From: an uncultured Carboxylicivirga sp.
GTDB taxonomy: Bacteria > Bacteroidota > Bacteroidia > Bacteroidales > Marinilabiliaceae
Length of the DNA: 64,000 bases
Direction: 5' to 3'
Assembly (NCBI GenBank): GCA_947503525.1
Contig: CANNEA010000008.1
Span: forward strand, 1 to 64,000
Under the pieces are notes generated by a model. The model saw nothing but the letters and a program-made list of their open reading frames with translations, did no database searches and had not been told where the DNA came from. Within the stretch, counting starts at the first letter, position 1. Each line of letters begins with the position of its first letter. This document shows positions 2,074 to 23,919 of this stretch, piece after piece. A program made the translations under genes and the position numbers.

Positions 2074-2081
2074 AAGTGATA

Positions 2082-2111: not shown

Positions 2112-2127
2112 ATAAAGCAAATAAGAT

Positions 2128-3075: not shown

Positions 3076-3097
3076 TCAAAGCACTTAAACCAGAACA

Positions 3098-5299
3098 ATG
3101 ATAAATCGTAAACATATATTGATGATCCTGGTGCTATTTGTAGTGGCATTTGGTGAATCATCGGCACAAAAGTTCAAGCGTAAAGTTGATAGTTTATATA
3201 CCTCGTATCGTATTAATCGTGCGGATAAAGCCTATGATAATATGGCTTATAAAAAAGCCATTGATCGATATCAAAGCATGTATAACAAACAAACTTTACC
3301 GGATTCTGTAAAGGGACAATTGGCCATAGCTTATTTTAAAGTTAGTGAAACCTCAAAGGCCGAGGAAGTATTCGCTACTATTCCGGAAGAGAATTTAAAT
3401 GACGAGGAGTTGTTTTTGTATGCACAAACTCTTAAGTACAATGGAAAGTACAATCAGGCGGATGGTTTGATTGAACGTTTCCATAATATCAATGCGTCAG
3501 ATTCAAGGGGAGTAAAGCAATTAAATGCCACTCCTGAGATTGAGAAAATATTATCAGAAGAACGTTATTTAATTGAAGAATTAGATATTAATTCAACACA
3601 ATCTGATTTTTCACCATTTGTAATGGAAGACAAGCTATATTTTACCTCGGCGCGCGATATTGATTACATCGTTAAACGTGATTATGCCTGGAAAGAAACG
3701 CCATATCTGAATGTTTTTAATGCGAAAATAAAAGAAGAAGGAGCGTTTTCTAATCCAAATCTTTTTTCGGGTGATATGCGATCGATGTATCACGACGGAC
3801 CGGTTTGTTTTAATGAAGCAGGTGATGAAATGTTTATAACGCGCAACTCTTTTCATAGTATGTTGAAAAAAGGTAAGGATGGTTATAATAACCTTAGAAT
3901 CTTGTACTCCAAGAAAATGATTGATGGTTCATGGACTAAACCTGAAGAACTACCTTTTAACGATCCGTCGTTCTCATGTGGACATGCCTTCTTAACAAAG
4001 GATGGTCAAAAAATGTACTTTACATCTGATCGCCCTGGTGGTTATGGAGGTGCGGATATCTATTACGTCCTTCGTTCGGAGCAAGGATGGGGTGAACCGA
4101 TTAATCTTGGTTCTGAAATCAATACTGAAGGTGAAGAAATGTTTCCATTTGTAGATGATAAGGGACAATTGTACTTTGCATCAAACGGTCATCTGGGGGT
4201 TGGAGGATTAGATCTGTTCATAGCCAGTAAGGTTAATGAAGCTTATCGGGTTAAAAATATGGGGTACCCAATTAATACAGCAAAGGACGACTTTTCCATT
4301 TTTATTATGGATGATGGCATTAATGGTTATTTTGCTTCAAACCGTGAAGGTGGTAAAGGAGATGATGATATCTATCGCTTTAAAGTATTAAAGGAAGTGG
4401 CCTTTAAATTACCGTTGAATGGGCGATTGGTAGATCAGAAAACAAAGCAGATTATTGCCAATACGCCTGTTGAACTTCGAGGACCGGAAGGTACAGTACT
4501 TGCTAACTTAGTTGCTGATGCTCAAGGTATGATTTATACTGAGTTGGATGAACATGCTTCAATTACAGCTATTGTAAACGCAGAAGACTATTTTCCTTAT
4601 ATGGAAACACTTCAGATGGTTACCGGAACTACGGAATTTGAATTGGCATTGGTACCCAAACCATACTATGGAATTTATGGTTCTGTTTTCTTGTTGCCCG
4701 ACATGACTCCTATTTCGGATGTAAGCCTTAAAATAGAAGCCAAAAATGGAGCCGAAGATTTAGCGGCTACCAATGAAGAAGGTGCATTCAAAACTAAATT
4801 ATTACCTGATACTGATTATGATATTGTATTTACTAAGAAGCAGTTTTTTACCAAACGTGTAAAATACTCAACGCTTGGGCGTGATACCGGTTATGTCAAC
4901 CTAAATGAGTTTATGGAACTTGAGCTTGAAGAAGCTAAAGTGGGTAAGAGTATCGAGATACAAGTATTATATGATTTGGGCAAATGGAATATTCGGGAAG
5001 ATGCGGCTGTGGAGCTGGATGATATGATTCAATTCTTAAATGATAATCCTAATATTAAAATTGAGTTGAGTTCTCATACCGATGCTCGTGGAAGTCGATC
5101 AAGCAATCAATCGCTTTCGCAGAAACGTGCTGAATCAGCTGTAAACTATATGGTTGAAAACGGCATTAGCAAAGAGCGTATGCAGGCCAAAGGTTATGGC
5201 GAAACTCGATTAAAGAATAAGTGTGCTGATGGGGTTAAGTGTTCGGAAGAAGAGCACCAAGCTAACCGTCGCACCGAAGTAACAATTATAGAAATGTAG
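3098..5299 (+). CDS. TPR/PD40/OmpA envelope protein (PorE-like)
   Basis: A 733-aa exported protein with signal peptide (cleavage near SSAQ). Order of parts: TPR-like helical region (about 30-145); WD40-like PD40 propeller repeats (about 165-430) with recurring blade motifs such as MYFTSDRPGGYGGADIYY and YFASNREGGKGDDDIYRF; a carboxypeptidase-regulatory-like beta-sandwich (about 435-600); and a C-terminal OmpA peptidoglycan-binding domain (about 620-733) with SSHTDARGS, QSLSQKRAESAVNYM and NRRTEVTI. This architecture matches PorE-type proteins, which link the T9SS trans-envelope complex to peptidoglycan, and related OmpA proteins next to PorP/SprF genes. It is the last gene before the terminator at 5345. 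Whether it is the core PorE or a locus-specific paralogue cannot be decided here. Confidence 0.9.
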   Translation: MINRKHILMILVLFVVAFGESSAQKFKRKVDSLYTSYRINRADKAYDNMAYKKAIDRYQSMYNKQTLPDSVKGQLAIAYFKVSETSKAEEVFATIPEENLNDEELFLYAQTLKYNGKYNQADGLIERFHNINASDSRGVKQLNATPEIEKILSEERYLIEELDINSTQSDFSPFVMEDKLYFTSARDIDYIVKRDYAWKETPYLNVFNAKIKEEGAFSNPNLFSGDMRSMYHDGPVCFNEAGDEMFITRNSFHSMLKKGKDGYNNLRILYSKKMIDGSWTKPEELPFNDPSFSCGHAFLTKDGQKMYFTSDRPGGYGGADIYYVLRSEQGWGEPINLGSEINTEGEEMFPFVDDKGQLYFASNGHLGVGGLDLFIASKVNEAYRVKNMGYPINTAKDDFSIFIMDDGINGYFASNREGGKGDDDIYRFKVLKEVAFKLPLNGRLVDQKTKQIIANTPVELRGPEGTVLANLVADAQGMIYTELDEHASITAIVNAEDYFPYMETLQMVTGTTEFELALVPKPYYGIYGSVFLLPDMTPISDVSLKIEAKNGAEDLAATNEEGAFKTKLLPDTDYDIVFTKKQFFTKRVKYSTLGRDTGYVNLNEFMELELEEAKVGKSIEIQVLYDLGKWNIREDAAVELDDMIQFLNDNPNIKIELSSHTDARGSRSSNQSLSQKRAESAVNYMVENGISKERMQAKGYGETRLKNKCADGVKCSEEEHQANRRTEVTIIEM

Positions 5300-5610
5300 T
5301 ACCGATAATAATCGGTATATAATATTGCTGGGGGAAGTAAAGAGAGGCGTTTTGCATTAAATTGCAAAGCGCCTTTTTTGCTATTTTAGCTCCATTAAAT
5401 GTTTATTTCAACAATGAATTATCCAAAGTCTTTTCTATCTCGAATATCTTGAGCAAAAAGTCAAAGCTTATCCCAATTTAGTAGTGCAAATTCAATCATT
5501 CGTAAGAAAAAGCAAGCTGTTAATCCAATTTGATTTATGGATTGGTAACAATTATTAACAAAGGGCGTAAAAACCTATTATTTGGGACCAATACATTATT
5601 ACTTGATTAT
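5300..5610. other. Intergenic region between ompA-like gene and giant adhesin
   Basis: It holds a small hairpin (ACCGAT/ATCGGT just after the stop), the terminator at 5345-5379 and a degenerate promoter-like element, TATTATTTG, at 5576-5584 (one base longer than the TAnnTTTG consensus). That element lies about 27 nt before the chosen adhesin start. No coding region is convincing, and no Shine-Dalgarno sequence is visible. Confidence 0.5.
5345..5379 (+). terminator. Intrinsic terminator after ompA-like gene
   Basis: GGCGTTTTGCA pairs with TGCAAAGCGCC (11-bp stem with one G-U pair) around a six-base loop and is followed by six T residues. It ends the adhesin-porP-ompA transcript and separates it from the giant adhesin gene. 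Confidence 0.88.
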
Positions 5611-8600
5611 ATGAGACTAAATCTACAACGTTTAGGGAAATCTCTTTTTGTTTTTTTATTTTACTTTACTAGCCTTCTTAATGCACAGGAAGGGACAAAG
5701 CAATTTATGCCTAACGCTTCTGACCGTCTTTGGCTTGAGATTTATCGTTCTACTGATAAGCTCTTTGCAACCTACGCAGCAACAGACAAAGAGCGTTTGT
5801 ATATTTATTTAAATGCAGGTGAAACCATGCATTTTGGTATGAAGATGGCCAGCTATAGTGGAGCAAATGTTGATTATATCAAGTTTCGAATCAAAGATGA
5901 AGGTGGAAGTGTTGTGTATACTGAAACGGATTTGCCTCAAACAGGTTCAGGCTATATATCTTCATACGATGCTGCTGTAAAAGGTCCCAATGGATTGGTT
6001 TTGAATGGAACCACGATTTCAGGTGGATATAGCGCCTTAAGCTATACGGCTGCAACAAGTGGTAATCATTATATTGAGTTTAGTTCTAAGGAGTGGAATT
6101 GGTATTCAGGAAGTTGGCATTTTGATGAAGGTCAACGTTTTGCTCTTGAATTCTTTGATGTAACAGTAACGGATGCTTCAAATAATGTAGTTACTAACCC
6201 TGGTAATCCCAATGTATCAGCCGGTCGTTTATGGTCGAAAGGTTGGGCTTTTACCACAACCAGTTTTTACGATTATCCTGTAAAAACAGACTTTTATGTA
6301 TTTACTGCCGATGAATTTGTAAATAAGGTACAGTATGAAATGAAACCTTATTCATTCAACTTTGTAGCCAATTCCTATGGCGTTTCAGTTGATGTAAATG
6401 ATAATGTTATCGAAAAAGCGCAAAGCCAGGATGGCGACCTAACTAATACTTCAGATATTTCGGAATATCGAATTTTCTTAAACGACCCTGATCGTGGTGT
6501 TTGGCAAAATACAGCCTTACCACCTCCTACAGTGCAAGTTTGGTTTGATGATGATTTGTTATACGATTACGATTATGACCGTGATCCTCAGGAATTAACT
6601 TTTCCATCTTCCACTATATTGTTGGAAAAGAACAATGTGACATGCCCATACAATAGTGTGACCATGTTTAAGATTGTCAGCAATATTGATGGTTTTGCAA
6701 CTATAATGCTCGATCTTGATGGAGGTGGTTATTCCACAGCGGGTAATGACCGTGCCTTAGAACTACCTTTAGTTCAGGGAGAAAATTATGTGCTTTGGGA
6801 TTTTAAAGATGATAGCGGTAATGAAGTTTCTGATGGTAGTTATACAGCATCAGGAACATTTTTGGGAAGAGGTCCTGCGCATTTTCCATTATACGATGTG
6901 GAAAGTTTGAGTGGAATTTCAACTTATTCAATACGTCCTTTTAATAAATTAGGACCAACCTTATACTGGGATGATACACAAACAGCTGAATGGGGAGATC
7001 AAGGCTCAGGAACAATGTCGGAAACGGCACAGAAGCAATTAACCATTAATAATCATATTCCTAGAGTTTGGACTTATAATGGGAATAATTATAACGGTAA
7101 TGGTACTACTTTAAACTCATGGTTTAATGCCATTGATTTAGGCATGTCTGTCATCAATTTTGATGTGGTTACCAGTGGTACCAAATGTGTTAATGGAGAA
7201 GCTCCTGTAATAGGAGATGTTAACATTATTGGTGCTATTGATGAAGTATTAACTTTTTCTTTAAGTGATTTTACCGATAAGTATTACGATCCAAACGATT
7301 TACCTTTAGTAAAGATTCAGGTACTTGAATTGCCTTCGCAAGGTGAATTAAGATTAAGTGGAGTTTTAGTAACAGATGATCAGGAAATATTAGCAGCGGA
7401 CATTGCCAACTTAACTTATACTCCTCCGTCTGGTTTTGGAGGAACTATACCTTTCGAATATAAGGCTTCAAGTGCAGATAACTATTCACTACAATCTAAC
7501 TATGTGAATTTAATTAGTAATTCAGCACCGACAATTGCTGCCATTGCTGATCAAACCATCTGTACCAACGACGGTTTGGTCAATCAGGCCATTACTGTTG
7601 GAGATGCTGAAACAGCAGCAGCAGACTTAACTGTTATTGCTTATTCTCACGATCCTGATTTTGTAGCTAACAATAATATTGAAGTAACAGGAACCGGTGC
7701 TACACGTTATTTGAATGTAACTCCGGTTAACGATGAGTCAGGTTTTGCAATCATCTATTTATTGGTTGATGATGGCCATTCACAAACCATTGAAGAATTT
7801 GCTCTGCATGTTGGGCCTTCTGTAGTGGTAAGTGGTGATTTATCTGTATGTGTAGGTGGCGATCTATTATTAACTGCTGAAGAAGTAGGAGCTAGCTATG
7901 TCTGGCAAAAGGGTGGAACAACTTTAAGTACAACAGGTCAGTTAAGTATTCCTTCGGTTACATTGGGAGATGCTGGTTTGTATTCATTAACAGTATCCAA
8001 AGAAAGCTGTGTAACTACCAAAGATTTTATGGTATCCATTGCACCGGCTGTATCTTTTACTGGTGATGTTGATCTTTGTGTAGGTGAGTCTATTTCATTA
8101 AGTGCAGATGAAACAGTGGCAACAACTTATTCATGGCGAAGAGGTGGAACTGAAATTGGAGATCAAAAAGTATTTAATCAAGCCAATCTTACACTTGCTG
8201 ATGCTGGTAATGATTATACGCTTTATGTTGAGAAAGAAGGCTGTGCTAATACTTCAGCACCGTTCTCCATTACAGTTGTTCAAATGTTAGATGCCAACAT
8301 TAGTGTAAGTTCAAATGATGTGATTGCGGGAAATGATGCTACTATTACACTTAGTAGTGCAGAGCAAAATATTGTTTATACCATATATGATAGTGGCGAT
8401 AATGCTGTAGCTACAGGATCTAATTCTACTGTAGGTGATGATTTGGTATTGACAGTATCAAGTGGCAATCTCGTTACAGGAACAAATACCTTTAGAATTG
8501 AAGGAAACAATGGGAACTGTACAGTTGAACTGAATAATACAGTAAGTTTAAATGTAAATTCAATTCCAACGGTTTCAGCTTTAACGATATCTACCGATGA

Positions 8601-11600
8601 AGATATCGCATATAACGGCAATGTATTAACAGGTGCTTCAGATGATGATGGTGGATCAATGACCGCGGCTTTAGCCACAGGTGGCGATCCGGCTAATGGT
8701 TCAGTAACTATTAATTCTGATGGATCATTTACTTATACACCTGATCTAAATTATTACGGATCTGATAGCTTTACTTTTGAAGTATGCGACAATCAGAGTC
8801 CTAATGCATGTGTTACGGCAGATGTAACAGTAACTGTTGTTGCTCAAAATGATGCCCCAACTTTAAGCACAGATACTAAAGTGCTGACGGAGGATAATAC
8901 CTTAATGTTTGCTGCGTCTGATTTTACCGATTTATTTGACGATGTGGATGGAGATGTGTTAAGTCAGCTTAGAATTGATGCTGTACCTAATGCCAGTACC
9001 GGTGTTCTGCAGTTGTCAGGTTCTACAATCGGGAACGGACAAATTATCTCCGCAGCACAATTGAGTAATCTAACCTTTGTGCCAGCCAACAATTGGAATG
9101 GTTCAACATCCTTTAGCTGGTCTGCAAGCGATGGCACATTGTGGTCTGCTTCGGGTGTGACAATGAGCCTAACAGTATCCGCCGAAGATGATGAACCAAG
9201 TGTGGCTAATGCAAGCGCTTCGGTTAATGAGGATGCTTCCAATGGAGCATCGGTAATAAATCTGAACGATCAACTGACAGGAACCGACTTTGATATTGAT
9301 GGTGAGGCCATTACTTACTCTGTTTTCTCAGGAAATACAGGTTCGGTATTTACCATTCATCCAACATCAGGTTTAATTACCGTTAATAATACTTCAGGTA
9401 TCGACTTTGAAACTTTAGATCAATATTCACTGGTCATTCGCTCAACGGATACACAAGGTTCATTCTCTGATGCTACAATTACAATTGATATAATTAATAC
9501 CGATACAGATGTAGTCTTGACAATTGCAGATCAGTCATTGACAGAAGGCAATACCGGTACATCTAATATGACTTTTACCATTTCGTCATCGGCCATAGTA
9601 GCCGCTGATTTAACGGTGAACTTTATCGTAAGTGATATTACTGCAGCACATCCTGCTGATTACACTGTGAATTCAGGTAGTGCTACCATTAGTGCAGGTA
9701 CGAACTCAACAACGATTAATATCCCTGTAGTAGGTGATGCCATAGTGGAAAGTACAGAAACTTTCAGACTGGATCTTAATTCACCAAGTTCTGGGTCAGT
9801 ATCCGGTTTTGCAACAGGAACCATTAATGATAACGACAATGCCAGTCTGACAATTTCTAATGCGACAGCCAATGAGGGTGACGGAAGCGTTGAGTTTTCA
9901 GTAACTTTAAACGGTACAGTTGCTTCGGCCTTTGATGTGGATTATGCTTTAAGTAATGGTTCAGCAACAGGTGGATCTGATTTTAATGCTTCAGCAGGCA
10001 CAATTAATTTTACAGGAACAAACGGACAGACCAGAACGATAAGTGTACCAATAACAGATGATGCTGTTGTTGAAAATACTGAGAGTTTTGGAATAAGCTT
10101 GTCAACAACTAATGTGGCGATTGATGCAACGGATACAGCAACAGGAACCATTAACGATAATGATGGTTCGGCTACCCTAAGCATAGCAAATATTTCATTT
10201 AATGAGAATGCCAGCGGTACATTTCGTGTGACTGTCGATAAAGCCGTTCAAGGTGGATTTGATGTAGGGTATTCCTTTGTTAATGGAACAGCCATTGCGG
10301 GAACAGACTTTAGTAACAGTACATCAGCGCTGTCATTTACCGGTACAGCAGGTGAATATGAAGAATTTACAGTGGCTGGTTTAGATGATGCCATTGTTGA
10401 GGGAACAGAGCAGTTTACAATTAACTTAAATAGTGCAAGTGGCCTGGTGGATGCCGGTGCTAGTGCAACTGGAAGCATTATTGATGATGATGCGGTTAAT
10501 GTAACCATAGATGATGTTTCAGCTTCAGAAGGAGGCTCTGCGAACTTTACCATAACTCTGAATAATGCTGTTGTGGGAGGTACTGTAATTACATATAGCT
10601 TCACTGATATAAGCGCTACAGGTGGATCAGATTATAATAATACATCCGGAACCGTAACGTTTGCTGGTACAGCCAACGAAACAAAATCCTTTAGTGTTGC
10701 TCTTACTGATGATAACAATGTGGAAACGGATGAAAGTTTCGAAGTAAGCCTATCAAGTAGTAATGTTCTGGTTGGTGCCGATGATAAGGCAACGGTAACC
10801 ATTAATGATAATGATGGTACAGCAATGGTATCTGTTTCAGATATTACAATAGATGAAAACCAGAATGCTACCTTCACTCTTGTATTAGATAAAAATGTTC
10901 AGGGTGGATTTGTTGTGGATTATTCCACTGAAAATGGAACCGCAAATGCAGGAACCGATTATGTGGCTCAATCATCCAATGTGAATTTTACAGGAAATGC
11001 AGGTGAATCACATGCAGTTACAATAGTTGTAAACGATGATAATATCGTTGAAACTGCCGAAAATCTATTGGTGAACTTTTCATGTGCCAATGCCTTGGTT
11101 AATACTACAGCACAGGCTCAGGCCTCAATAAACGATAACGATGGTTTGGCTACATTATCTATTGCTAATGTTACTTTCGATGAAAACGGTTCGGGTACAT
11201 TTAGTGTAACAGTTAATAAAGCCGTTCAGGGTGGATTTGATGTTACTAATGGATTTACAAGTGGAACTGCCATTAGCGGAACTGACTTTGATAATTCAAC
11301 TCAAACTTTAAGTTTTAACGGATCAGCCAATCAAACGCTTACTTTTAATGTCGCGGCTGTGGATGATGCCATTGTTGAAAACTCAGAAAGTTTTACTGTA
11401 ACATTAAGTACTGCCAATGCTTTAGTAGATGCTACGGCAACAGCCATTGGAACAATTAATGATAATGATGCAGCAAATATTTCTGTAGGAGATATCAATA
11501 TCTCTGAAGGAAATAATGCAGTGTTTAGTTTACAGTTATCGGCAGCAGTTGCTGGTGGTGTGACAGTTAATTATACTTTAGAAGGAATTAGTGCTAGTCC

Positions 11601-14600
11601 TGTTAATGATTATTCTGATTTATCAGATCAGGTCAGTTTTGTGGGTAATGCCAACGAAATAGTAACCATAACAATTCTTACAGTGGATGATGCAGTAGTG
11701 GAAGCGACTGAATCATTCCGTTTACGTTTAACGATTTCCAATACATTGGTGACTTTGGATAATCAAGCCATTGCCAATATAACAGATAATGATGGTAGAG
11801 CCAAAGTGAGTGTCAATGATATTAGTGTAAGTGAAGGAGCTAATGCGGTCCTCACCCTTAGTCTGGATAAAGCTGTTCAGGATGGGTTTAGTATTAACCA
11901 TAGTACATCTGCCGTAACTGCACTTGCTGTGAGTGATTTTGCTTCAAGTACAGGTAGTACAAGTTTTGTCGGAACGCTTGGCGAAACACAGACTATCACA
12001 ATCACTTTAAATGATGATAATGTTGTAGAGTCTGATGAACTATTTACCATTGACTTATCTACTATTCATGCCTTAGTTGATGTGGATGCAAGTGCTCAGG
12101 TTACTATTCAGGATAATGATGGAATAGGTACTTTAAGCACATCTAATATCACCTTTGATGAAGATGGTAGCGGATCTTTTGATGTGACAGTTGATAAGGC
12201 CGTTCAGGGTGGTTTTACTGTGGCTTATGCATTTACAGATGGAACAGCACTTGAAGGTATTGACTTCAATGGTGTGGGAACAAGCATAAACTTTAACGGT
12301 ACTGCTGGTCAGACTCAAAGTTTTACAGTAAATGCCATAGATGATAATATTGTTGAGGGACCTGAAAGTTTTACAGCTACACTATCAACAATAAGTCCAC
12401 TGGTAGATGCATCAGCAAGTGCCAGCGGAACAATTACAGATAATGATATTGCAGCTGTTTCGGTTGTTGATGTTAATATAATTGAAGGTGAAGATGTTGT
12501 CTTTACAATGGAACTAAATAAAGATGTAGTTGGTGGTTTTGAGGTGGATTATTACTTAAGCGGATTGACTGCAACTTCGGATGTTGATTATGCTGATGTT
12601 TCAGATAAAGTAATATTTACCGGAACAGAAGGAGAACAACGCACCGTTACGATTTCAACAGCTGATGATAACAGTGTTGAAAGTGCTGAGACTTTCCGAC
12701 TAAATATGTCAACGGTGCATACTTTGGTTAATGTACAGGCTTCTGCTTTGGCAACCATTGCCGATAACGATGGAACAGCTAATGTAAGTATCAATGATAT
12801 CAGCATAACAGAAGGAGATGATGCTGTATTGACTTTAACTTTAGATAAAAATGTTCAGGGAGGAGTAACAATTTCTTATTCCACTGCTGATGCTACAGCT
12901 AATGCAGGATCTGATTTTAATAATACCATTAGTTCGGTTTCGTTTGCCGGAACAAGCGGAGAAACACAAACAGTAAGCATTACTATCATTGATGATTCTG
13001 TGATTGAAGGTGCAGAAGCCTTTAATGTATTAATATCTTCGGCCAATGCCTTGGTAACAACTTCAGGAACCGGTGAGGTAAGTGTTGCTGATAATGATGG
13101 AACAGCTACTTTAATTGTTGATAACATCACCGTAAGCGAAGGTGGTTCATCTAATATTACCTTAAGTATCGATAAGGAGGTACAGGGATCAGTTGATATT
13201 AACTATAGTATGACTGATTTAACTGCAACAGCCGGTGATGATTATGATGCAAGTGCCGGTGTTGTTACTTTAACAGGTACTGATTCACGTATTATTGAAA
13301 TGACAGCCATGCAGGATGTTTTGGTGGAAGGTAACGAACAATTTACGGTTGCCTATTCGGCTTCATCCTTATTGGTAGATGCTAGTGCAGAATCAACAGT
13401 GACCATTATCGATGATGATACAGCCAACCTGCTGGTTGCTGATGCTTCGGCCAGCGAAGGAGATAACCTGAGCTTTACGGTAAGTTTAAGTCAGGAAGTT
13501 CTTGGTGGAGTGGATGTCACATATAATTTAACCGCAGTAGATGCAAGTGCCGATACGGATTATACGGATGTTTCAGGTGGTGTTTTGAACTTTGTTGGAA
13601 CAGCAGGCGAAACACAAACTTTTGATGTGCCATTAGCTTCTGATTTATTGGTGGAGAGTAGTGAGACTTTTATAGTAAGTTTGAGTTCATCAAATGCACT
13701 GGTTGGAGCTGACGATACAGCCACAGGAACAATTTTGGATACCAATGGAAGAGCTGGTATTACCATATCAGACATCATTATTGATGAAGATGAGAATGCC
13801 GTATTTGAAGTTATTTTAGACAAAGCCGTTCAGGGTGGTGTTGTTGTTAATTATTCCAGTGCTGATGGAACAGCTGGTGCAGCATCAGATTATACTTCAA
13901 AAATTGATGTACTTAACTTTGCCGGTATAGTTGCAGGCGAAAGCCAATTTATAACTATTGATGTTAATGATGATCTACTGGTTGAGACTGTTGAAAACTT
14001 CAGTGTAAATCTATCTACAGCTCATAGTCTGGTAGATGTTGATGCTACGGCAATGGCAACTATCAATGATAATGATGGAGATGTTACCCTATCTGTAAAT
14101 ACTATTTCCTTCCAGGAAGATGGAGATGCAACGGTAACCGTAAGTTCTGATAAAGCCATTCAGGGAGGTTTTGATGTTGATTATACATTTGTTGGAGTAA
14201 CAGCCACAGCAGATCTTGATTTTGAAGATACGCCAGGTACTTTAAATTTTGTAGGTAGCTTAAACGAAGAACAAAGTTTTACCGTAAGAGGTATTGACGA
14301 TTCGATACTGGAAGGAAACGAAACCTTCCAGATAACATTTACTAGCTCTAACAGCTTGGTAGATGCGTCAGTAGTGTCTTCAGGTACAATTACCGATAAT
14401 GATGTCACAGTGGTGACAGTTGATGAAATCACCATAACAGAGGGAGCGAATGCCATCTTTACGCTGACTCTTTCTGATGAGGTTGTTGGTGGATTTGATT
14501 TAGATTATAGCTTATTGGCTGCTACAGCAACAGCTAATGTGGATTATACAGATGCTTCAGGGCAGGTTAGTTTTATTGGAACGGCTGGTGAACAACAGAC

Positions 14601-17600
14601 CGTTGAAGTTACTATTACCGATGATGCTATTGTTGAAACAAGCGAAACTTTCTCATTGGTATTAAGTTCAGCAAACATCGCGATTACACCTGATTCGGAA
14701 ACGCTAGCAACAATTACCGATAATGATGGAACAGCTGCTGTAAGTGTATTGGCAGTGACAATAAATGAAGGTGAAGAAGCTATACTGAGCTTAGAACTGG
14801 ATAAAGCGGTTCAGGGTGGGTTTGGCATCAATATCAATACCGCAGATGTCACTGCCTTGGCTGGTTCTGATTATACAGCTTTAATTGATGTTGTGACTTT
14901 TGTAGGTGCAGCAGGTGAAACACAGGAAGTACGTATTTCAACCAGCGATGATGCAATTGTTGAAACCCAGGAGTCCTTGTCATTAGCCTTGTTAAGTGCT
15001 AATACATTAGTGGTGCCAACAGCTTCGGTTGATATTAGCATAATTGATAACGACGGATTGGTTAACTTATCTCTTGATAATGTAAGTGTTCAGGAGGACG
15101 GTGAAGCTGTAGTGACAGTTAGCGCTGATAAAGCCATTCAGGGAGGTTTTGATGTGGATTATTCTTTTATCAATGGTACTGCAACAGCGGGTCTGGATTT
15201 TGAAGATACGCCAGGTACATTAAATTTCTCTGGTTTAATGGGTGAAGAGCAAACAATTACTGTAAAAGCAATTGATGATGCCATATTAGAAGGAGAGGAG
15301 ACTTTCCAGATTGGCCTGACTACAACCAATGCATTGGTAGATGCCTCTGCTCTGTCTTCATCAAGCATTACCGATAACGATGTTACTGTTGTGACAGTGG
15401 ATGAAATAACGGTTGTTGAAGGTAATAAGGCCATTTTTACCCTAACGCTTTCCGATATGGTTATGGGTGGATTTAATCTGGATTACAGCCTACTTGCCGG
15501 AACCGCAACTCTTAATGATGACTATACTGATCTTAATGCACAGGTAGCATTTGTTGGAACAGCCGGTGAACAGCAGGTTATTGAAGTAATTACTATTGAT
15601 GATGCTATTGTTGAAGCGGATGAAACTTTCTCTTTAGTACTTAGCTCGTCAAATATTGCCATTGAACCGGATGCCGAAACTATGGCTACCATAAGTGATA
15701 ATGATGGTGCAGCTTCTATTACCGTTGAAGAAGTAACAGTTAATGAAGGCGAAGAGGCCGTATTAACCTTGGTGTCTGACAAAGCTGTTGAAGGCGGTTT
15801 TGATATTAATATTTCAACTACAGATAATACAGCAAGTTCAGTTACTGATTATACAGCTTTAGTTGATGTGGTGAGTTTTACTGGTACAGCCGGTGAAACG
15901 CAGGAAGTACGAGTGGCAACAACAGATGATAATGTGGTGGAAAGTCAGGAAAGCTTTAGCTTAAATCTGACCTCGGCCAATACATTGGTTGTGCCTGAGC
16001 CTTCAGTTAATATTAATATCAATGATAATGATGATGTAGCAAAGTTAATTGTAGGTGATATAGCAGTAACAGAAGGCGGCTTGCAGTTTGTTAATCTATG
16101 GCTCGATAAGGCGGTTGAAGGTGGTGTCACAATTAATTTGAGTGTGGTGGAAGGAACTGCATCGGCTTCCGATATCAGCTTATCTACCAATAGCGTGGTG
16201 ATAAATGGAACAGAAATTAAGACCGTTAATTTAACTGCAATAGAAGATTACATTGTTGAAGGTAATGAAACCTTGGAAATTCATTATAGTTCTGGTTCTG
16301 ATAAAGTTGATGTAAGTGGTATTACAGAAGTCTTAATTACTGATTTAGACATGACATTTGTATCTATTAGTGATGTAAGTGTTGAGGAAGGTGAAACAGC
16401 AACTATGGAAGTAACCTTAATTGGTGAAGTAGCCAATGCCTTTACCGTTGACTATGTTATTACTGATGGAACAACAAGTGTAGATCTGGATTATACAGCA
16501 AGCAATGGAACCTTGAATTTTGAGGGTAATGCCGGTGAAGTTCAAAGTTTTGATATCCTAACCATCGATGATGCACTTCTTGAAGGTAGTGAAGAATTAT
16601 CTATTGCATTGATCTCATCTAATGCAGCCGTTGATGCTTCTGCCACATCTACCTTAACTATTGAGGATAACGAAGAAGGGGGATGGACTGTTACAGCAAC
16701 AGATGATATTACCATTACATCGGAGGCAGGCATAAGTGACGATATCACACTCGTATTGGATACTAAACCAAATAGCGATGTTGTTATTGATGTTACAGGT
16801 TTGGATGCAACAGAAGGAAGTCTTTCTGCAACAAGTTTTACGTTTACAACGGATAACTGGGATACAGAACAAACTCTAACAATTACTGGAGTTGATGATA
16901 CGGAAGTGGATGGCAATATCAGTTATGATTTAACCATTGCGGTTAATAATGCTTCTTCTGATGCCGACTTCCATAATTTAACTACAACATTAACTGTTCA
17001 GAATAACGATAATGATGTGTTAAATCCTGTACCGGTATTAACTGATGATGTGGCAACAACCACTGAAGATACAGGAATTGATATTGACGTGCTGGCCAAT
17101 GATAGCGGTTTGGATGATACACCAATTACAGTGATACTGGTGGCTCAACCTACAAATGCCTTAGTGACCAGAAACGCAGATAATAGTTTTAATGTGGTGC
17201 CTTATGCCAATTATTATGGTGATGTCACCTTCGAATATCAGGTATGTGACTCGGGTGATGATTGTGCAACAGCTACAGTTACGGTAAGCGTAACATCAGT
17301 TAACGATACTCCTGAAATTGGTGGAACCTTTGCCTTAACACTTGAACAAGGTGAAACGGCTACGGGCCAAAATCTGAAGAGTACAGCTACTGATGTGGAA
17401 GACGATGTACTAACATTGAACACCGTTCCTACACCAGCGCCTGCTCATGGTGATGTGCAAATCAATACTGATGGTACATGGAGCTATACGGCAGATTCCG
17501 ATTACGAAGGAACGGACTTCTTTGACTTTACCATTTGTGATGATGGAACACCTCAGGAATGTGTGACTGCCAGAGTGAACATTACCATTACTGCTCAGGT

Positions 17601-18366
17601 AGTTGAAAATATCGCTCCAGAAGCCAATGATGATGCTTATCAAACAGGGCGTAACGAGTTGCTTTCAGGACAGAACTTATTGGATAACGATACAGATGCC
17701 GATGGTGATAACTTAAGCATTAATGTATTGCCAATTGCAAATACGTTAAACGGTGACTTGACTATTCATCAGGATGGTACCTTCAATTATACTCCGGATA
17801 AAGATTATACTGGTGAGGATAGTTTTACCTATCAGGTTTGTGATAATGCAAGCGACTCGAAATGCTCGGTGGCTACCGTAACAATTACTGTTATAGTGAA
17901 GGACACGGATGGTGATACAATAGCCGACGATATTGAAGGTGATGACGATGTGGATGGCGACGGTGATCCGAATTATCTTGATTTGGATAGTGATGGTGAT
18001 GGGCTTTCTGATGAGGAAGAAGGATTGGGTGACTGTGATGAGGATGGCATTTACGACTTCCTGGATGCCGATCAGTGTTTCGATGATGAATTGCCTTTAT
18101 CCAAAGGTTTCTCGCCAAATAACGATGGTATAAACGATACCTATGTGATTCCTTGGTTGGGAGAATACACAGCTGTTAGTCTGGAGGTATTTAACCGTTG
18201 GGGTAATGTAGTGTTTAAAAGGGATATCTATGAAAATGATTGGGATGGTAAAGCTAATGTAGGCATGACCATAGGAGATGAATTACCGGTGGGTACTTAT
18301 TTCTATATCATTACCATTGCAGAGACCAATCAGCAATTAAACGGATACATTTACCTAAATCGTTAA
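5611..18366 (+). CDS. Giant Calx-beta repeat T9SS type-B adhesin
   Basis: About 4,251 aa. The ATG at 5611 is chosen because it starts directly with a signal peptide (LFVFLFYFTSLLNAQ); an upstream TTG at 5530 would bury it. Parts in order: a unique N-terminal region (to about 730); Ig-like domains with paired Cys (about 735-900); cadherin-like domains (about 985-1300); about 22 Calx-beta-like domains (about 1301-3690) with the recurring ends TFTITDND-like and EGxxA; one module related to the repeats of the upstream adhesin (about 3692-3802); tandem-95/VCBS-like domains (about 3805-4093); a short DxDGDG calcium-binding linker; and a CHU_C type-B sorting domain (about 4161-4251) with GFSPNNDGIND and FNRWGNVVF. 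Calx-beta domains usually bind calcium, so the stalk is probably stiffened by it. A PorP/SprF gene follows 31 bp downstream. Ligand unknown. Confidence 0.95.
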   Translation: MRLNLQRLGKSLFVFLFYFTSLLNAQEGTKQFMPNASDRLWLEIYRSTDKLFATYAATDKERLYIYLNAGETMHFGMKMASYSGANVDYIKFRIKDEGGSVVYTETDLPQTGSGYISSYDAAVKGPNGLVLNGTTISGGYSALSYTAATSGNHYIEFSSKEWNWYSGSWHFDEGQRFALEFFDVTVTDASNNVVTNPGNPNVSAGRLWSKGWAFTTTSFYDYPVKTDFYVFTADEFVNKVQYEMKPYSFNFVANSYGVSVDVNDNVIEKAQSQDGDLTNTSDISEYRIFLNDPDRGVWQNTALPPPTVQVWFDDDLLYDYDYDRDPQELTFPSSTILLEKNNVTCPYNSVTMFKIVSNIDGFATIMLDLDGGGYSTAGNDRALELPLVQGENYVLWDFKDDSGNEVSDGSYTASGTFLGRGPAHFPLYDVESLSGISTYSIRPFNKLGPTLYWDDTQTAEWGDQGSGTMSETAQKQLTINNHIPRVWTYNGNNYNGNGTTLNSWFNAIDLGMSVINFDVVTSGTKCVNGEAPVIGDVNIIGAIDEVLTFSLSDFTDKYYDPNDLPLVKIQVLELPSQGELRLSGVLVTDDQEILAADIANLTYTPPSGFGGTIPFEYKASSADNYSLQSNYVNLISNSAPTIAAIADQTICTNDGLVNQAITVGDAETAAADLTVIAYSHDPDFVANNNIEVTGTGATRYLNVTPVNDESGFAIIYLLVDDGHSQTIEEFALHVGPSVVVSGDLSVCVGGDLLLTAEEVGASYVWQKGGTTLSTTGQLSIPSVTLGDAGLYSLTVSKESCVTTKDFMVSIAPAVSFTGDVDLCVGESISLSADETVATTYSWRRGGTEIGDQKVFNQANLTLADAGNDYTLYVEKEGCANTSAPFSITVVQMLDANISVSSNDVIAGNDATITLSSAEQNIVYTIYDSGDNAVATGSNSTVGDDLVLTVSSGNLVTGTNTFRIEGNNGNCTVELNNTVSLNVNSIPTVSALTISTDEDIAYNGNVLTGASDDDGGSMTAALATGGDPANGSVTINSDGSFTYTPDLNYYGSDSFTFEVCDNQSPNACVTADVTVTVVAQNDAPTLSTDTKVLTEDNTLMFAASDFTDLFDDVDGDVLSQLRIDAVPNASTGVLQLSGSTIGNGQIISAAQLSNLTFVPANNWNGSTSFSWSASDGTLWSASGVTMSLTVSAEDDEPSVANASASVNEDASNGASVINLNDQLTGTDFDIDGEAITYSVFSGNTGSVFTIHPTSGLITVNNTSGIDFETLDQYSLVIRSTDTQGSFSDATITIDIINTDTDVVLTIADQSLTEGNTGTSNMTFTISSSAIVAADLTVNFIVSDITAAHPADYTVNSGSATISAGTNSTTINIPVVGDAIVESTETFRLDLNSPSSGSVSGFATGTINDNDNASLTISNATANEGDGSVEFSVTLNGTVASAFDVDYALSNGSATGGSDFNASAGTINFTGTNGQTRTISVPITDDAVVENTESFGISLSTTNVAIDATDTATGTINDNDGSATLSIANISFNENASGTFRVTVDKAVQGGFDVGYSFVNGTAIAGTDFSNSTSALSFTGTAGEYEEFTVAGLDDAIVEGTEQFTINLNSASGLVDAGASATGSIIDDDAVNVTIDDVSASEGGSANFTITLNNAVVGGTVITYSFTDISATGGSDYNNTSGTVTFAGTANETKSFSVALTDDNNVETDESFEVSLSSSNVLVGADDKATVTINDNDGTAMVSVSDITIDENQNATFTLVLDKNVQGGFVVDYSTENGTANAGTDYVAQSSNVNFTGNAGESHAVTIVVNDDNIVETAENLLVNFSCANALVNTTAQAQASINDNDGLATLSIANVTFDENGSGTFSVTVNKAVQGGFDVTNGFTSGTAISGTDFDNSTQTLSFNGSANQTLTFNVAAVDDAIVENSESFTVTLSTANALVDATATAIGTINDNDAANISVGDINISEGNNAVFSLQLSAAVAGGVTVNYTLEGISASPVNDYSDLSDQVSFVGNANEIVTITILTVDDAVVEATESFRLRLTISNTLVTLDNQAIANITDNDGRAKVSVNDISVSEGANAVLTLSLDKAVQDGFSINHSTSAVTALAVSDFASSTGSTSFVGTLGETQTITITLNDDNVVESDELFTIDLSTIHALVDVDASAQVTIQDNDGIGTLSTSNITFDEDGSGSFDVTVDKAVQGGFTVAYAFTDGTALEGIDFNGVGTSINFNGTAGQTQSFTVNAIDDNIVEGPESFTATLSTISPLVDASASASGTITDNDIAAVSVVDVNIIEGEDVVFTMELNKDVVGGFEVDYYLSGLTATSDVDYADVSDKVIFTGTEGEQRTVTISTADDNSVESAETFRLNMSTVHTLVNVQASALATIADNDGTANVSINDISITEGDDAVLTLTLDKNVQGGVTISYSTADATANAGSDFNNTISSVSFAGTSGETQTVSITIIDDSVIEGAEAFNVLISSANALVTTSGTGEVSVADNDGTATLIVDNITVSEGGSSNITLSIDKEVQGSVDINYSMTDLTATAGDDYDASAGVVTLTGTDSRIIEMTAMQDVLVEGNEQFTVAYSASSLLVDASAESTVTIIDDDTANLLVADASASEGDNLSFTVSLSQEVLGGVDVTYNLTAVDASADTDYTDVSGGVLNFVGTAGETQTFDVPLASDLLVESSETFIVSLSSSNALVGADDTATGTILDTNGRAGITISDIIIDEDENAVFEVILDKAVQGGVVVNYSSADGTAGAASDYTSKIDVLNFAGIVAGESQFITIDVNDDLLVETVENFSVNLSTAHSLVDVDATAMATINDNDGDVTLSVNTISFQEDGDATVTVSSDKAIQGGFDVDYTFVGVTATADLDFEDTPGTLNFVGSLNEEQSFTVRGIDDSILEGNETFQITFTSSNSLVDASVVSSGTITDNDVTVVTVDEITITEGANAIFTLTLSDEVVGGFDLDYSLLAATATANVDYTDASGQVSFIGTAGEQQTVEVTITDDAIVETSETFSLVLSSANIAITPDSETLATITDNDGTAAVSVLAVTINEGEEAILSLELDKAVQGGFGININTADVTALAGSDYTALIDVVTFVGAAGETQEVRISTSDDAIVETQESLSLALLSANTLVVPTASVDISIIDNDGLVNLSLDNVSVQEDGEAVVTVSADKAIQGGFDVDYSFINGTATAGLDFEDTPGTLNFSGLMGEEQTITVKAIDDAILEGEETFQIGLTTTNALVDASALSSSSITDNDVTVVTVDEITVVEGNKAIFTLTLSDMVMGGFNLDYSLLAGTATLNDDYTDLNAQVAFVGTAGEQQVIEVITIDDAIVEADETFSLVLSSSNIAIEPDAETMATISDNDGAASITVEEVTVNEGEEAVLTLVSDKAVEGGFDINISTTDNTASSVTDYTALVDVVSFTGTAGETQEVRVATTDDNVVESQESFSLNLTSANTLVVPEPSVNININDNDDVAKLIVGDIAVTEGGLQFVNLWLDKAVEGGVTINLSVVEGTASASDISLSTNSVVINGTEIKTVNLTAIEDYIVEGNETLEIHYSSGSDKVDVSGITEVLITDLDMTFVSISDVSVEEGETATMEVTLIGEVANAFTVDYVITDGTTSVDLDYTASNGTLNFEGNAGEVQSFDILTIDDALLEGSEELSIALISSNAAVDASATSTLTIEDNEEGGWTVTATDDITITSEAGISDDITLVLDTKPNSDVVIDVTGLDATEGSLSATSFTFTTDNWDTEQTLTITGVDDTEVDGNISYDLTIAVNNASSDADFHNLTTTLTVQNNDNDVLNPVPVLTDDVATTTEDTGIDIDVLANDSGLDDTPITVILVAQPTNALVTRNADNSFNVVPYANYYGDVTFEYQVCDSGDDCATATVTVSVTSVNDTPEIGGTFALTLEQGETATGQNLKSTATDVEDDVLTLNTVPTPAPAHGDVQINTDGTWSYTADSDYEGTDFFDFTICDDGTPQECVTARVNITITAQVVENIAPEANDDAYQTGRNELLSGQNLLDNDTDADGDNLSINVLPIANTLNGDLTIHQDGTFNYTPDKDYTGEDSFTYQVCDNASDSKCSVATVTITVIVKDTDGDTIADDIEGDDDVDGDGDPNYLDLDSDGDGLSDEEEGLGDCDEDGIYDFLDADQCFDDELPLSKGFSPNNDGINDTYVIPWLGEYTAVSLEVFNRWGNVVFKRDIYENDWDGKANVGMTIGDELPVGTYFYIITIAETNQQLNGYIYLNR
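9511..16680 (+). repeat. Array of about 22 Calx-beta-like domains
   Basis: Domain boundaries can be placed after each DND/DDD-type end. The 22 units are mostly 106-110 codons long. Unit starts that I read directly include 9511, 9841, 10168, 10495, 10819, 11146, 11473, 11797, 12124, 12451, 12775, 13102, 13423, 13750, 14080, 14407, 14731, 15058, 15385, 15709, 16036 and 16354. DNA identity between units is moderate, so most duplications are not recent. Confidence 0.88.
10168..16035 (+). repeat. Six consecutive 978-bp higher-order repeats (three Calx-beta domains each)
   Basis: Blocks start at 10168, 11146, 12124, 13102, 14080 and 15058, and the next unit starts at 16036. Every block is exactly 978 bp (326 codons). 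Five blocks divide as 109+108+109 codons; the block at 13102 divides as 107+109+110. Within a block the first domain is an xATLSI/SFxE type, the second typically ends DNDG after a VVGG-type core, and the third carries LDKAVQGG-type cores. Blocks 14080 and 15058 are the most alike, for example both have DFEDTPGTLNF in domain one. Confidence 0.85.
16684..17016 (+). repeat. Single copy of the module tandemly repeated in the upstream adhesin
   Basis: This 111-aa segment has SEAGISDD, VVIDVTGLDATEGSL and DDTEVDGNISYDLTIAV. It aligns along its length with the 114-aa units at 52-1077 (SEAGTSDA, DITGLDATEGSL, DDAEVDGDIDYTLTLAV). The two adhesins therefore share a module in addition to their C-terminal sorting domains. 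Confidence 0.85.
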
Positions 18367-18397: not shown

Positions 18398-19348
18398 ATG
18401 TTTAAATCAATTATAAATATCAAGAAAAGCTTGTTAGCGCTAATGCTTTTAGTTTCACTAAAAGCATTGGCTCAGCAAGAGCCTTTATATACCCAATACA
18501 TGTTTAATGCCATGTCCGTGAATCCGGCAATCACAGGTGTGGATGAAACACTTAACATGACCTTTCTATCGCGCTTGCAATGGGCTGGTATGGATGGGGC
18601 ACCGGAGACTTATTCTTTTGCGGCTCAAACACCCTTTACTAACCTAGATATGGGTATTGGATTATCACTGGTGGCTGATAATCTAGGACCGGTTAAAAAC
18701 TATTATTTCAACTTTAATTATGCTTATCGTTTACAGGTAACGGATCAGATTAAACTGTCCTTTGGTTTGAAGGCAGGTATTTATAATTACTATGTTGGAC
18801 TTGATGGCTTATTGCTTGATGGTACCGGCAACGATCCTGCTTTTCAGGGGCAGATAGAGCGTAAGTTTCAACCAAATATTGGCGCAGGATTGTACTTGTA
18901 TGATGAAAAGTTTTATGCAGGCTTCTCAGTTCCGCGTATGATTAATAACCGCCTGGATAATGCAGAAAGTGAAACGGAGGGTAATGTTTTTGCACAGGTG
19001 TCACAGCACTATTATATAATGGCTGGTTATACTTTTGATATTGATAGAGATTGGCAATTACGCCCTTCCTTTATAAACAAAATGGTAACGGGAGCACCGC
19101 CTTCAACGGATATTGCAGCTCAGGCCATTTATAAAGAAACCTATTGGCTGGGTGCATCCTATCGTTTTGGTGATGCAGTAGCTATTTTAGCCAATATGAA
19201 AGTAAGTGATCAGTTTTTTGTTGGCTACTCCTATGATTTCTCAATATCTAAGATGAACTCCTTTAATAAAGGCAGTCACGAAATAGTAATTTCGTATAGC
19301 TATGGTGGCCTCTTAGATAAAGTTGGTCGAACGAAGCCGATCAGATAA
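18398..19348 (+). CDS. PorP/SprF family type IX secretion membrane protein, second copy
   Basis: A 316-aa outer-membrane barrel with a signal peptide (SLLALMLLVSLKALAQ) and mature start QQEPLYTQYMFNAMSVNPAI. It is close in sequence and length to the protein at 2128, sharing QWAGMDGAP/QWTGMDGAP, YYFNFNYAYR, and the C-terminal SYDFSISK and GSHEIVISY signatures. It lies 31 bp after the giant type-B adhesin. By analogy with SprB-SprF, it probably serves that adhesin in surface delivery or anchoring. The start ATG is followed at once by the signal peptide, so the start is well supported. Confidence 0.93.
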   Translation: MFKSIINIKKSLLALMLLVSLKALAQQEPLYTQYMFNAMSVNPAITGVDETLNMTFLSRLQWAGMDGAPETYSFAAQTPFTNLDMGIGLSLVADNLGPVKNYYFNFNYAYRLQVTDQIKLSFGLKAGIYNYYVGLDGLLLDGTGNDPAFQGQIERKFQPNIGAGLYLYDEKFYAGFSVPRMINNRLDNAESETEGNVFAQVSQHYYIMAGYTFDIDRDWQLRPSFINKMVTGAPPSTDIAAQAIYKETYWLGASYRFGDAVAILANMKVSDQFFVGYSYDFSISKMNSFNKGSHEIVISYSYGGLLDKVGRTKPIR

Positions 19349-21978: not shown

Positions 21979-23919
21979 ATGAATGAATTACAATTACTCC
22001 TAAAAAATGCTTGTTACACCATGCTTACCATTCTTTTAAGCATGGGAGCATGGCAAACCATTACAGCCAATAACAGTCTTGGTAAAACGTCTCAATCCAA
22101 TGAGTTACCAAACATTATTTTCTTTGCAGAGCCAAATAAACCGGTTGAGCTTTTTGTAAGAACAATAGACGGACAGGTAGATGTTGATTGGGGAGATGGT
22201 TCTATCCAGCAATATAACAGTGAATATCCCATTGTGGGGCAAGCTACTGATACTGTGAGAATTTATGGTCAGGCCATCGATTCCATTGACTGTTCTAATG
22301 CTGGTATATCCAGCCTTGATATTAGTAATTCTGAAGATCTGGAGTATTTACTTTGTTATAATAATCATTTGCTTTTTTCTTCAATGCCTAAAGTAGATTC
22401 GGACATAACAGCTTTTGAGTATGCGCCACAAGAGAGGGTGCAATTGCTCAGATCCTTTAATGCCAATCTACCACTAGATTTATCCTCAGAATGGATTATT
22501 CAAAATAAAGCAGGGAGCTATTCAAATACCCAATACCTTTGGAAAACCAAGTCGGGTAATACCTTGGTGCTTAATGTAGATTATACTTTTGATAAGGGGA
22601 TCACTCGATTTATTGAGGAACAAGCGGATAGTGTGTATTGCGAAATGACAAATGGCTTCTTCCCGGACCTGGTTTTAAGGACACGAAATGTTAAAATTCT
22701 TCCGGCCAAACCAGATCTTACTTTATTTGGGCCTTTATTCGAGGAGTTTACCTTTTGGCTGAATCCTGTTGGAGGCCCTGGTGAACATTACGTTCAAATA
22801 GATTGGGGCGATGGAGTAAGAGTGAATACTCAAATTAATTCAAGTATAGTGACAGGAATTGCTAGTGATACTGTAAAGATTTATGGTAAAACCTTACGAT
22901 TTACGGCTTATGCCGACAGCAAAATCACGTATTTAAATACTAATGATAATCAGTTTATCGATCAGATTACTGTTGTTAACAGCAATATAAAGGAGTTCCA
23001 TGCTAAAAACTGCCCCAATCTTCGTTATATCGATTTTAATGATAATAAGACTGAGAGCATAGATATCACAGGTTCTAAGTCTATCATACAACTCAATAGT
23101 GTTCAGAATAAATTAAAGGCTATAGATTTATCAACTAATATTAATCTTGAGATATTAGGCCTCAATTACAATCAATTGGAATATATCGACATTAGTAATA
23201 ATACGAAGCTAAAAATGGCATACCTCTATGATAATAACTTGCAAGAGATTAATATAGATAATAACCAAGCCTTAACTAGTCTTTCTGTTTTTAATAATTA
23301 CTTTAGGATATCGGCACTACCAGCGCCTCGCTATGGCATGAATTATAGTTTTAGTCCGCAGAAGTTGATTAAAATGCCAAAGAAAGATTATTTAACTGAA
23401 GAGTCAATTGATTTAAGTAAGGAGTTATTCAGTATCGATAGAGACGGAGTCATACAAACTACCGCTTTTAAATGGTACGCTCAGCCTTATTCAGCCTATC
23501 CCTATCTATTGCAAAAAGATTTAGATTATGCCGAGGATAATGGGGTATTTACATTTTTATCAGCTCAAACCGATAGTGTTTATTGCCAAATGACGAATGC
23601 TGCCTTTGGTAATCAGATTTTTCAGTCGCGCAAGCTGTTTATAAGTGACGATACACCGACTGGTCTCTTGGATTCCGAATTGGCTAAGAAAGATAAAAGG
23701 TTGTTTTATCCCAACCCTGTTAACTCGACTATAAACTTGAATATGGATTATCAGAATTTGGAGGAAATTAAAATCTATGATCTGAATGGCGAATTGGTGT
23801 TTGCACGTTCCACATTCAATAATTCAGTAATGGATTTATCATCACTAAAACAGGGCGTATATCTGCTTTGTATTAGCTATGAGGGCAAAGTTTATTCCGA
23901 TAAGTTGATTAAGTATTAA
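21979..23919 (+). CDS. Secreted leucine-rich repeat protein with T9SS type-A sorting domain
   Basis: A 646-aa exported protein; the signal segment is MLTILLSMGAWQTITA, and a later Met at 22021 could also start it. It has two PKD-like/WGDG segments (VDVDWGDGS and VQIDWGDGV), each followed by TDTVRIYG/SDTVKIYG. A long run of irregular leucine-rich repeats follows (about 310-440; NLRYIDFNDN, NLEILGLNYN, KLKMAYLYDN). Two homologous SVYCEMTN/SVYCQMTN segments also appear. The C-terminus (about 575-646) has FYPNPVNSTINL, EIKIYDLNGELVF and LKQGVYLLCI, the type-A T9SS sorting signature. Probably a surface binding protein; ligand unknown. Confidence 0.9.
   Translation: MNELQLLLKNACYTMLTILLSMGAWQTITANNSLGKTSQSNELPNIIFFAEPNKPVELFVRTIDGQVDVDWGDGSIQQYNSEYPIVGQATDTVRIYGQAIDSIDCSNAGISSLDISNSEDLEYLLCYNNHLLFSSMPKVDSDITAFEYAPQERVQLLRSFNANLPLDLSSEWIIQNKAGSYSNTQYLWKTKSGNTLVLNVDYTFDKGITRFIEEQADSVYCEMTNGFFPDLVLRTRNVKILPAKPDLTLFGPLFEEFTFWLNPVGGPGEHYVQIDWGDGVRVNTQINSSIVTGIASDTVKIYGKTLRFTAYADSKITYLNTNDNQFIDQITVVNSNIKEFHAKNCPNLRYIDFNDNKTESIDITGSKSIIQLNSVQNKLKAIDLSTNINLEILGLNYNQLEYIDISNNTKLKMAYLYDNNLQEINIDNNQALTSLSVFNNYFRISALPAPRYGMNYSFSPQKLIKMPKKDYLTEESIDLSKELFSIDRDGVIQTTAFKWYAQPYSAYPYLLQKDLDYAEDNGVFTFLSAQTDSVYCQMTNAAFGNQIFQSRKLFISDDTPTGLLDSELAKKDKRLFYPNPVNSTINLNMDYQNLEEIKIYDLNGELVFARSTFNNSVMDLSSLKQGVYLLCISYEGKVYSDKLIKY

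Follow-up and report, generated by a model that had tools for sequence, protein, structure and literature searches.

The window, by which we mean the whole 64,000-nucleotide stretch analysed here (contig CANNEA010000008.1 of an uncultured Carboxylicivirga sp., Marinilabiliaceae, Bacteroidota; assembly GCA_947503525.1), carries a gene for a giant surface protein assigned to type B of the type IX secretion system (T9SS), with a stalk of Calx-beta domains in a repeating A-B-C order. The protein is likely a fibrillar adhesin whose stalk grew as tracts of several domains were copied in register, their ends falling on or close to the conserved DNDG joints between domains; its function as an adhesin we infer from sequence. 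Comparison of related arrays showed that the super-repeat is real and conserved in the genus and that domain number changed by three or two, and it located the ends of the duplicated tracts. Multi-domain duplication is a known kind of evolution, here unusually readable. The array is a clean super-repeat of a bacterial surface protein that related species preserve in different states (15, 17, 19 and 22 domains), and the rules of stalk growth (where domains are inserted, how many are added per step and what stays constant) can be read directly. Duplication history could also be separated from selection on length, and the new structural hint, a distinctive A-to-B joint, yields a testable claim on one special joint per block. 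Among the literature matches listed, no publication dealt with this gene or with a Calx-beta super-repeat.

A three-class super-repeat and its age

The Pfam profile PF03160 matched the giant protein in 21 stretches, with 671.5 bits over the whole length (cut-off 27). We delimited 22 Calx-beta domains, D01 to D22, of which 21 exceeded the cut-off singly; the exception was D21 (24.5 bits vs 27). A first-pass annotation of this DNA had described six blocks of three domains, each of exactly 978 bp. With each domain taken to begin directly behind the xDND motif, which puts the boundaries one codon before those of the annotation, all six were recovered (Table 1) with the codon splits it had given, 109/108/109 in five blocks and 107/109/110 in the block at 13099. 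Self-comparison of the region from 9.5 to 16.7 kb peaked at lag 326 for protein (identity 0.363) and lag 978 for DNA (0.494), in both cases the highest of all lags tested.

The claim that every third unit is of the same subtype held as well. Among the 18 block domains, mean identity was 47.1% within classes and 38.3% between them, a gap equalled in none of 10,000 label permutations, and when moduli 2 to 7 were tried the signal was positive only for 3 and its multiple 6. Of the 22 domains, 18 had a nearest neighbour of their own class. A domain tree, which the annotation had named as a check, clustered the domains by class, if imperfectly: five label changes were required against a minimum of two, while shuffled labels required 10.8 on average and as few as five in 1 of 200 shuffles. 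Taken alone, classes A, B and C required 2, 4 and 3 changes; D12 was misplaced with D21 (support 87/88), and D04 and D13 with D01 and D02 (79/94). These comparisons confirm domains 3 to 20 as a real, well-defined A-B-C super-repeat. Blocks 5 and 6, singled out earlier as the youngest pair, were indeed the closest (69, 75 and 65% identity by domain; next best pair anywhere, 62%), though by their divergence, at about 70% identity, the duplication is not recent.

The full adhesin gene was found in 5 of the 13 other genomes of the genus examined (denoted below by G numbers), with orthologous contigs among Carboxylicivirga mesophila, Carboxylicivirga sp. A043, C. sediminis and Marinilabiliaceae bacterium N1Y90. 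In the remaining eight, matches to the N-terminal query were confined to residues 918-1115, an immunoglobulin (Ig)- or cadherin-like part. Comparison of repeat number across relatives, also called for by the annotation, gave counts (Calx-beta domains scoring over 50 bits) of 22 in the window and G003, 19 in G002, 17 in G010 and 15 in both G009 and G011. A tree of the N-terminal region joined the window with G002 (93/94) and then G003 (100/100 for the trio), apart from G009-G011; between these two clades the N-terminal regions are only 63-67% identical. Class profiles trained on the window, G002 and G003, with block 4 and the tested genome left out, assigned the expected class from D03 on to 11 of 13 domains in G009, 12 of 13 in G011 and 12 of 15 in G010. 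The corresponding values for the window (18/20), G003 (19/20) and G002 (16/17) are inflated by direct orthology. In five of the six orthologous arrays, the window included, none of 5000 permutations matched the modulo-3 signal. By these assignments, the A-B-C order predates the split of the clades in the genus.

Whether the classes ever acquired separate roles is a different question. We put at about even the chance that the A-B-C pattern is no more than a passive relic of past copying, its classes having no roles of their own, a view compatible with the growth proposed here. Expansion by several domains at once is common in domain repeats, according to the part of the literature cited (PMC1553488), and the classes in this stalk have no known function of their own. 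Against a purely passive origin, class-specific columns persist across arrays as divergent as those of the two clades, and the class-B columns are non-randomly placed on a stalk model (see below), in which the region limits were chosen after the sites had been seen.

Growth of the array by multi-domain duplication

Permutations, the domain tree, trees of single blocks, the ends of duplicated tracts and the class phase of the orthologs together lend good support to the annotation's view that the stalk grew by duplication of a three-domain unit. The tree of each of blocks 1 to 4 gave the order ((window, G002), G003), as did the N-terminal region. The best match in the window was the positional partner for 12 of 14 domains in G003 (D01-D14) and 15 of 16 in G002 (D01-D16), with a tie for the remaining one; domains further along were not counted, since blocks 5 and 6 confuse the comparison. 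Judged by these trees and matches, blocks 1-4 are shown to be common to the window, G002 and G003, and the array changes near its C-terminal end. In the tree of blocks 5 and 6, the two G003 copies were sisters (100/99), and those of the window fell together with the one block of G002 (99/96 for the trio). The approximately unbiased (AU) test rejected a pairing of block 5 in the window with block 5 in G003 (p 1.8e-49), and likewise of the two blocks 6 (p 1.3e-4). The simplest reading of these trees is that block 5 doubled separately in the window and G003 lineages, the same unit at the same place.

The ends of the duplicated tracts were examined in three cases: the window and G003 at lag 326, and G010 at lag 217. 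Identity rose and fell within about 20 residues or less of a DNDG joint, at a resolution set by the 18-residue sliding window. DNA at the interdomain DNDG joint itself is similar throughout the window's array. In G010 (locus L033) the duplication comprised two domains, a C and an A (D14-D15 copied to D16-D17, 71% identity), and the array ends C-A-C-A; a unit of three domains is evidently not obligatory, given this two-domain doubling. The maximum identity of adjacent domains was 0.44-0.49 in the six arrays, and that of the recent lag-3 or lag-2 copies 0.65-0.75.

In G003 (locus L031), domains D03, D06 and D09 share an extra residue and similar letters around it (VSANRTL, VPVNRTL and VPANQTL), seen in neither the window nor G002; exchange between domains of the same class is a possible cause. 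Such exchange would be needed if blocks 5 and 6 stemmed from a single duplication in the ancestor of the window, G002 and G003, with gene conversion homogenising the window and G003 copies separately and G002 losing one copy. Both doublings lie at the same joint and in the same phase, and the G003 domains just described hint at same-class exchange. This history calls for a gain, a loss and homogenisation over the full length in two lineages, as against two gains, and a scan of D03-D14 found few exchange tracts (5 of 1080 same-class windows and 1 of 2880 different-class windows), numbers too small to be decisive. We hold it to be unlikely.

Separate, in-register duplication of several domains is the reading we prefer, and a number of observations weigh against parts of it. 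Four of the 22 window domains have a nearest neighbour of another class, and the G010 array fails the modulo-3 test (363 of 5000 permutations). The grouping of window blocks 5 and 6 as a pair against all others, block 5 of G002 included, has support of just 64/41, and the doubling of block 5 at a shared joint could, for its part, come from one older duplication followed by homogenisation and loss in G002. Just three fairly recent duplications were seen, so that the absence of single-domain copies is weak evidence. Finally, the Calx-beta array of G017, from another genus of the family, has a lag-1 identity of 0.71, and any filter favouring divergent neighbours is therefore not absolute.

That array belongs to a gene for 3307 amino acids (L036, 6270-16193) with 23 Calx-beta domains over 12 bits, spaced mostly by 112 residues. 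It is a stalk of near-identical repeats, unlike the window's, with a PorP/SprF gene next downstream. A super-period was absent from both other Calx-beta arrays long enough to test, namely G017 (23 contiguous domains) and G188 (16), and we rejected the idea that Calx-beta arrays are super-periodic in general. In the stretches examined, the other open reading frames (ORFs) of more than 900 amino acids with Calx-beta matches either held fewer than nine domains or had only three in an unbroken run, outside the range of the test.

The proposed sequence of events is as follows. Tracts of several domains would duplicate in register, with ends at or near the conserved DNDG joints, probably by unequal crossing-over. 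Changes would continue near the C-terminal end of the array, presumably the cell-proximal end, while blocks 1-4 stayed fixed in three species. Domain repeats frequently expand by several domains at once, often in mid-array, in the account of one survey as cited (PMC1553488), and neighbouring homologous domains are described as diverging, which avoids long-lived misfolding (PMC4660218, for the part cited). Multi-domain copying may have been retained here on similar grounds: it would lengthen the stalk without placing near-identical domains, which favour misfolding, next to each other.

Block length, joints and a stalk model

The annotation had also suggested selection on total block length. Selection on the exact length finds no support in the orthologs. 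From D03 on, 30 consecutive three-domain sums were available in the six genes (the fifth of G010 being out of phase); 23 were 326, six were 327 and one was 325. Block 4 has the identical 107/109/110 split in G002, so it was inherited and did not arise by independent compensation; in G003 the split is 107/108/110, or 325. Three A domains of G003 carry one additional residue that is not compensated. By arithmetic, three deviations of size 1 or 2 sum to zero in 6 of 64 combinations of sign and size. Given these lengths, the exact 978 bp most likely follows from inheritance and from domain lengths that vary little.

Residues at the joints were counted in 90 of the 110 domains; omitted were D01 and D02 of each array and the last two domains of the window, G003, G002 and G010. 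The residue after DND was glycine in all 61 A and C domains, and this glycine was missing from all 29 B domains. In the BC loop, the DKAVQ stretch was altered in B domains, where D was kept in 4, K in 6 and Q in 3 of 29. By these residues the A-to-B joint is unlike the other two, lacking the linker glycine and having an altered BC loop, which makes one odd joint per block. One-against-rest comparisons, with classes shuffled over domain positions, identified 12 class-specific columns for A, 9 for B and 15 for C at a threshold of no more than 2 of 300 shuffles, uncorrected for the number of columns.

A structure of D15-D18 was predicted from 22 aligned four-domain stretches (mean pLDDT 94.5, pTM 0.69). 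Of the nine B columns, eight lay at the base, which should face the A domain before it, and the apex had none (p 0.0014 vs background); the limits of base and apex are post hoc, as noted, and the neighbour that each end is taken to face is deduced from strand order. Seven of the 12 A columns lay at the apex (p 0.17, not significant). Counted between the strands of successive domains, the linker in the model is four residues long at the A-to-B joint and five at each of the other joints. Its best single-domain matches in the PDB were CBD1 of NCX1 and CALX, with Z 15.1-15.8 on D17 (3gin: Z 15.8, root-mean-square deviation [rmsd] 1.7 Å over 109 residues), in keeping with a Calx-beta fold. Two-domain matches to CBD12 covered D16-D17 and D17-D18 (3us9: rmsd 10.8 Å over 217). 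Over four domains the matches were cadherins and extenders of RTX adhesins, at Z of about 9 to 11 (6xi1: Z 9.9, rmsd 8.1 Å over 369); these fit an extended rod but may show merely a common arrangement. Chains of the ciliary central apparatus, in the top rows of a Foldseek search with the model, had TM-scores of at most 0.40 by query length and were not taken as relatives.

We find it very unlikely that, as first suggested, each 326-residue block forms one structural repeat unit in the stalk and has its total length held by selection: all six window blocks do total 326 despite the different split of block 4, and the base-facing B columns with four- instead of five-residue linkers do give one odd joint per block, but 7 of the 30 sums are 325 or 327, block 4 has the same split in G002 and totals 325 in G003, G010 gained two domains to end C-A-C-A, and one-residue indels in loops presumably need not alter the length of a domain. 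The block may still be a structural repeat in itself, which the distinctive joint makes testable. A speculative extension, which we think the odds are clearly against, is that the A-to-B joint serves the stalk as a mechanical element at regular intervals: its shorter, glycine-free linker would let the apex of A, where calcium binds, pack against a specialised base in B, giving a stiff or kinked joint every three domains, a rhythm that growth by whole blocks would keep.

The gene, its surroundings and comparison with known systems

Under the preferred explanation, the protein would carry a conserved head at its N-terminus, followed by an extended stalk of Calx-beta domains and, at the C-terminus, a signal for the adjoining PorP/SprF protein to handle. 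Features are collected in Table 1. The listed ORF of the adhesin gene spans 5530-18366 and opens at TTG 5530. ATG 5611 is the likely true start, as it is followed by a signal-peptide-like stretch and then EGTKQFMP, likewise in five orthologs.

Table 1. Features of the adhesin gene and the adjoining downstream gene (positions in the window).
Feature	Position	Strand	Remarks
Giant T9SS type B surface protein, 4251 amino acids	5611..18366	+	likely start ATG 5611
Putative head: conserved N-terminal region, 545 amino acids, begins EGTKQFMP	5689..7323	+	no Pfam family above cut-off
Calx-beta D01, not in blocks	9505..9837	+	
Calx-beta D02, not in blocks	9838..10164	+	
Block 1: D03 A, D04 B, D05 C; 109/108/109	10165..11142	+	
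Block 2: D06-D08; 109/108/109	11143..12120	+	
Block 3: D09-D11; 109/108/109	12121..13098	+	
Block 4: D12-D14; 107/109/110	13099..14076	+	divergent block
Block 5: D15-D17; 109/108/109	14077..15054	+	
Block 6: D18-D20; 109/108/109	15055..16032	+	nearest copy of block 5
Calx-beta D21, terminal, without clear class	16033..16350	+	singly under Pfam cut-off
Calx-beta D22, terminal, without clear class	16351..16674	+	
CHU_C / T9SS type B C-terminal sorting domain	18100..18357	+	CHU_C and TIGR04131 matches
PorP/SprF-family outer-membrane protein, putative shuttle and anchor of the adhesin	18398..19348	+	PF11751, TIGR03519

The C-terminal domain matched CHU_C with 90.7 bits (cut-off 27), at residues 4191-4276 of the protein of the listed ORF, and TIGR04131 with 50.2 bits (cut-off 35). 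The product of the downstream gene matched PF11751 with 277.6 bits and TIGR03519 with 268.4 bits. A PF11751 ORF also lies directly downstream of the adhesin gene in all five orthologs (278-280 bits, cut-off 22.3), making six of six with the window.

The N-terminal region occurs in 27 loci of Bacteroidota and is 52-78% identical to 20 aligned homologs. Pfam matches to it were below cut-off only. A profile search of the PDB returned four weak matches (best E 0.0099, mitochondrial ribosomal mS29) and no convincing relative. Its AlphaFold model was poor (mean pLDDT 64.1, pTM 0.46), and among the 50 PDB matches listed for that model TM-scores were at most 0.17 by query length; none was interpreted. 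A custom Calx-beta profile found arrays of 15-22 domains in 4 of the 27 head-bearing ORFs, all of the Carboxylicivirga group, a single match in 2, and none over 25 bits in 21; many of the 27 contigs are open, and the profile missed a Pfam Calx-beta match of 69.6 bits in L061. A Pfam scan covered six of these ORFs. Four (L063, L066, L067 and L068) have Big_9/cadherin-type stalks and a CHU_C signal; L074 combines CHU_C with Ig-like domains. In L061, open at the end of its stretch, no CHU_C was seen. With such different stalks under the same N-terminal region, the head looks conserved and the stalk exchangeable across lineages. This region, carried on various stalks in Bacteroidota, is a separate lead on the binding targets of these proteins.

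Just upstream (52-5299) lies a second type B system, consisting of a 673-residue CHU_C protein, its own PorP/SprF gene and a PorE-like OmpA gene, the last with NCBIfam matches under cut-off. A match of the 673-residue protein to an NCBIfam toxin model (21.7 bits vs a threshold of 720) was far too low and was taken as noise. Two more proteins, at 21979-23919 and 51569-53710, have Por_Secre_tail matches; in the second, which also has a trypsin-like peptidase domain, the match is just below the Pfam cut-off. The window genome encodes a GldJ homolog barely above the curated cut-off (465.2 vs 458.2 bits), which permits gliding but does not show it.

Among the closest known systems are SprB and other T9SS type B proteins of Flavobacterium johnsoniae, which share the type B signal, a PorP/SprF gene directly downstream and a giant repetitive protein (PMC9143113 and PMC12618676, in the parts cited). 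The likeness is drawn from genes alone, with homology judged at the C-terminal signal. A C-terminal TIGR04131/CHU_C domain was found in the window's protein, and an adjoining downstream PorP/SprF gene in the window, all five orthologs and G017; PorP/SprF-like partners are described in the same sources as binding type B proteins. BapP of Pseudoalteromonas tunicata, a calcium-dependent biofilm adhesin, also combines Calx-beta and Big_9 repeats; it differs in its beta-propeller head and repeat order, and the cited portion of its description mentions no T9SS signal (PMC12153261). NCX1 and CALX share the Calx-beta fold in CBD1-CBD2 (3us9, 3gin), but with a two-domain rmsd near 10 Å the predicted joint geometry differs from that of CBD12. 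Periscope proteins resemble the stalk in that repeat number varies among relatives, so that the reach of the head would vary (PMC8201768, as far as cited). Their repeats are highly identical, whereas those of the window are at most 75% identical (best within-array pair 0.75, and 0.53-0.71 in the other five arrays), and the variation here is between species, with one genome each.

For the mode of growth, nebulin and other domain repeats offer a parallel: several domains were duplicated at once, and in nebulin the duplications were biased C-terminally, in the portion of that work cited (PMC1553488). The stalk here is bacterial, hence without exons, and its unit is three Calx-beta domains. The A-band super-repeats of titin offer a parallel in pattern. 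As described in the cited part of one account (PMC10665226), same-position domains are more alike, as in five of six arrays here (not G010); the super-repeats evolved by recursive duplication; and linker types are periodic, as is the linker glycine of the stalk (61/61 A and C domains, 0/29 B domains). Titin is unrelated, being built of Ig and FnIII domains, and its period of about 43 nm fits the thick filament, a partner with no known equivalent here. If the A-to-B joint does prove to be a mechanical element, it would be a bacterial counterpart of titin's periodic linkers.

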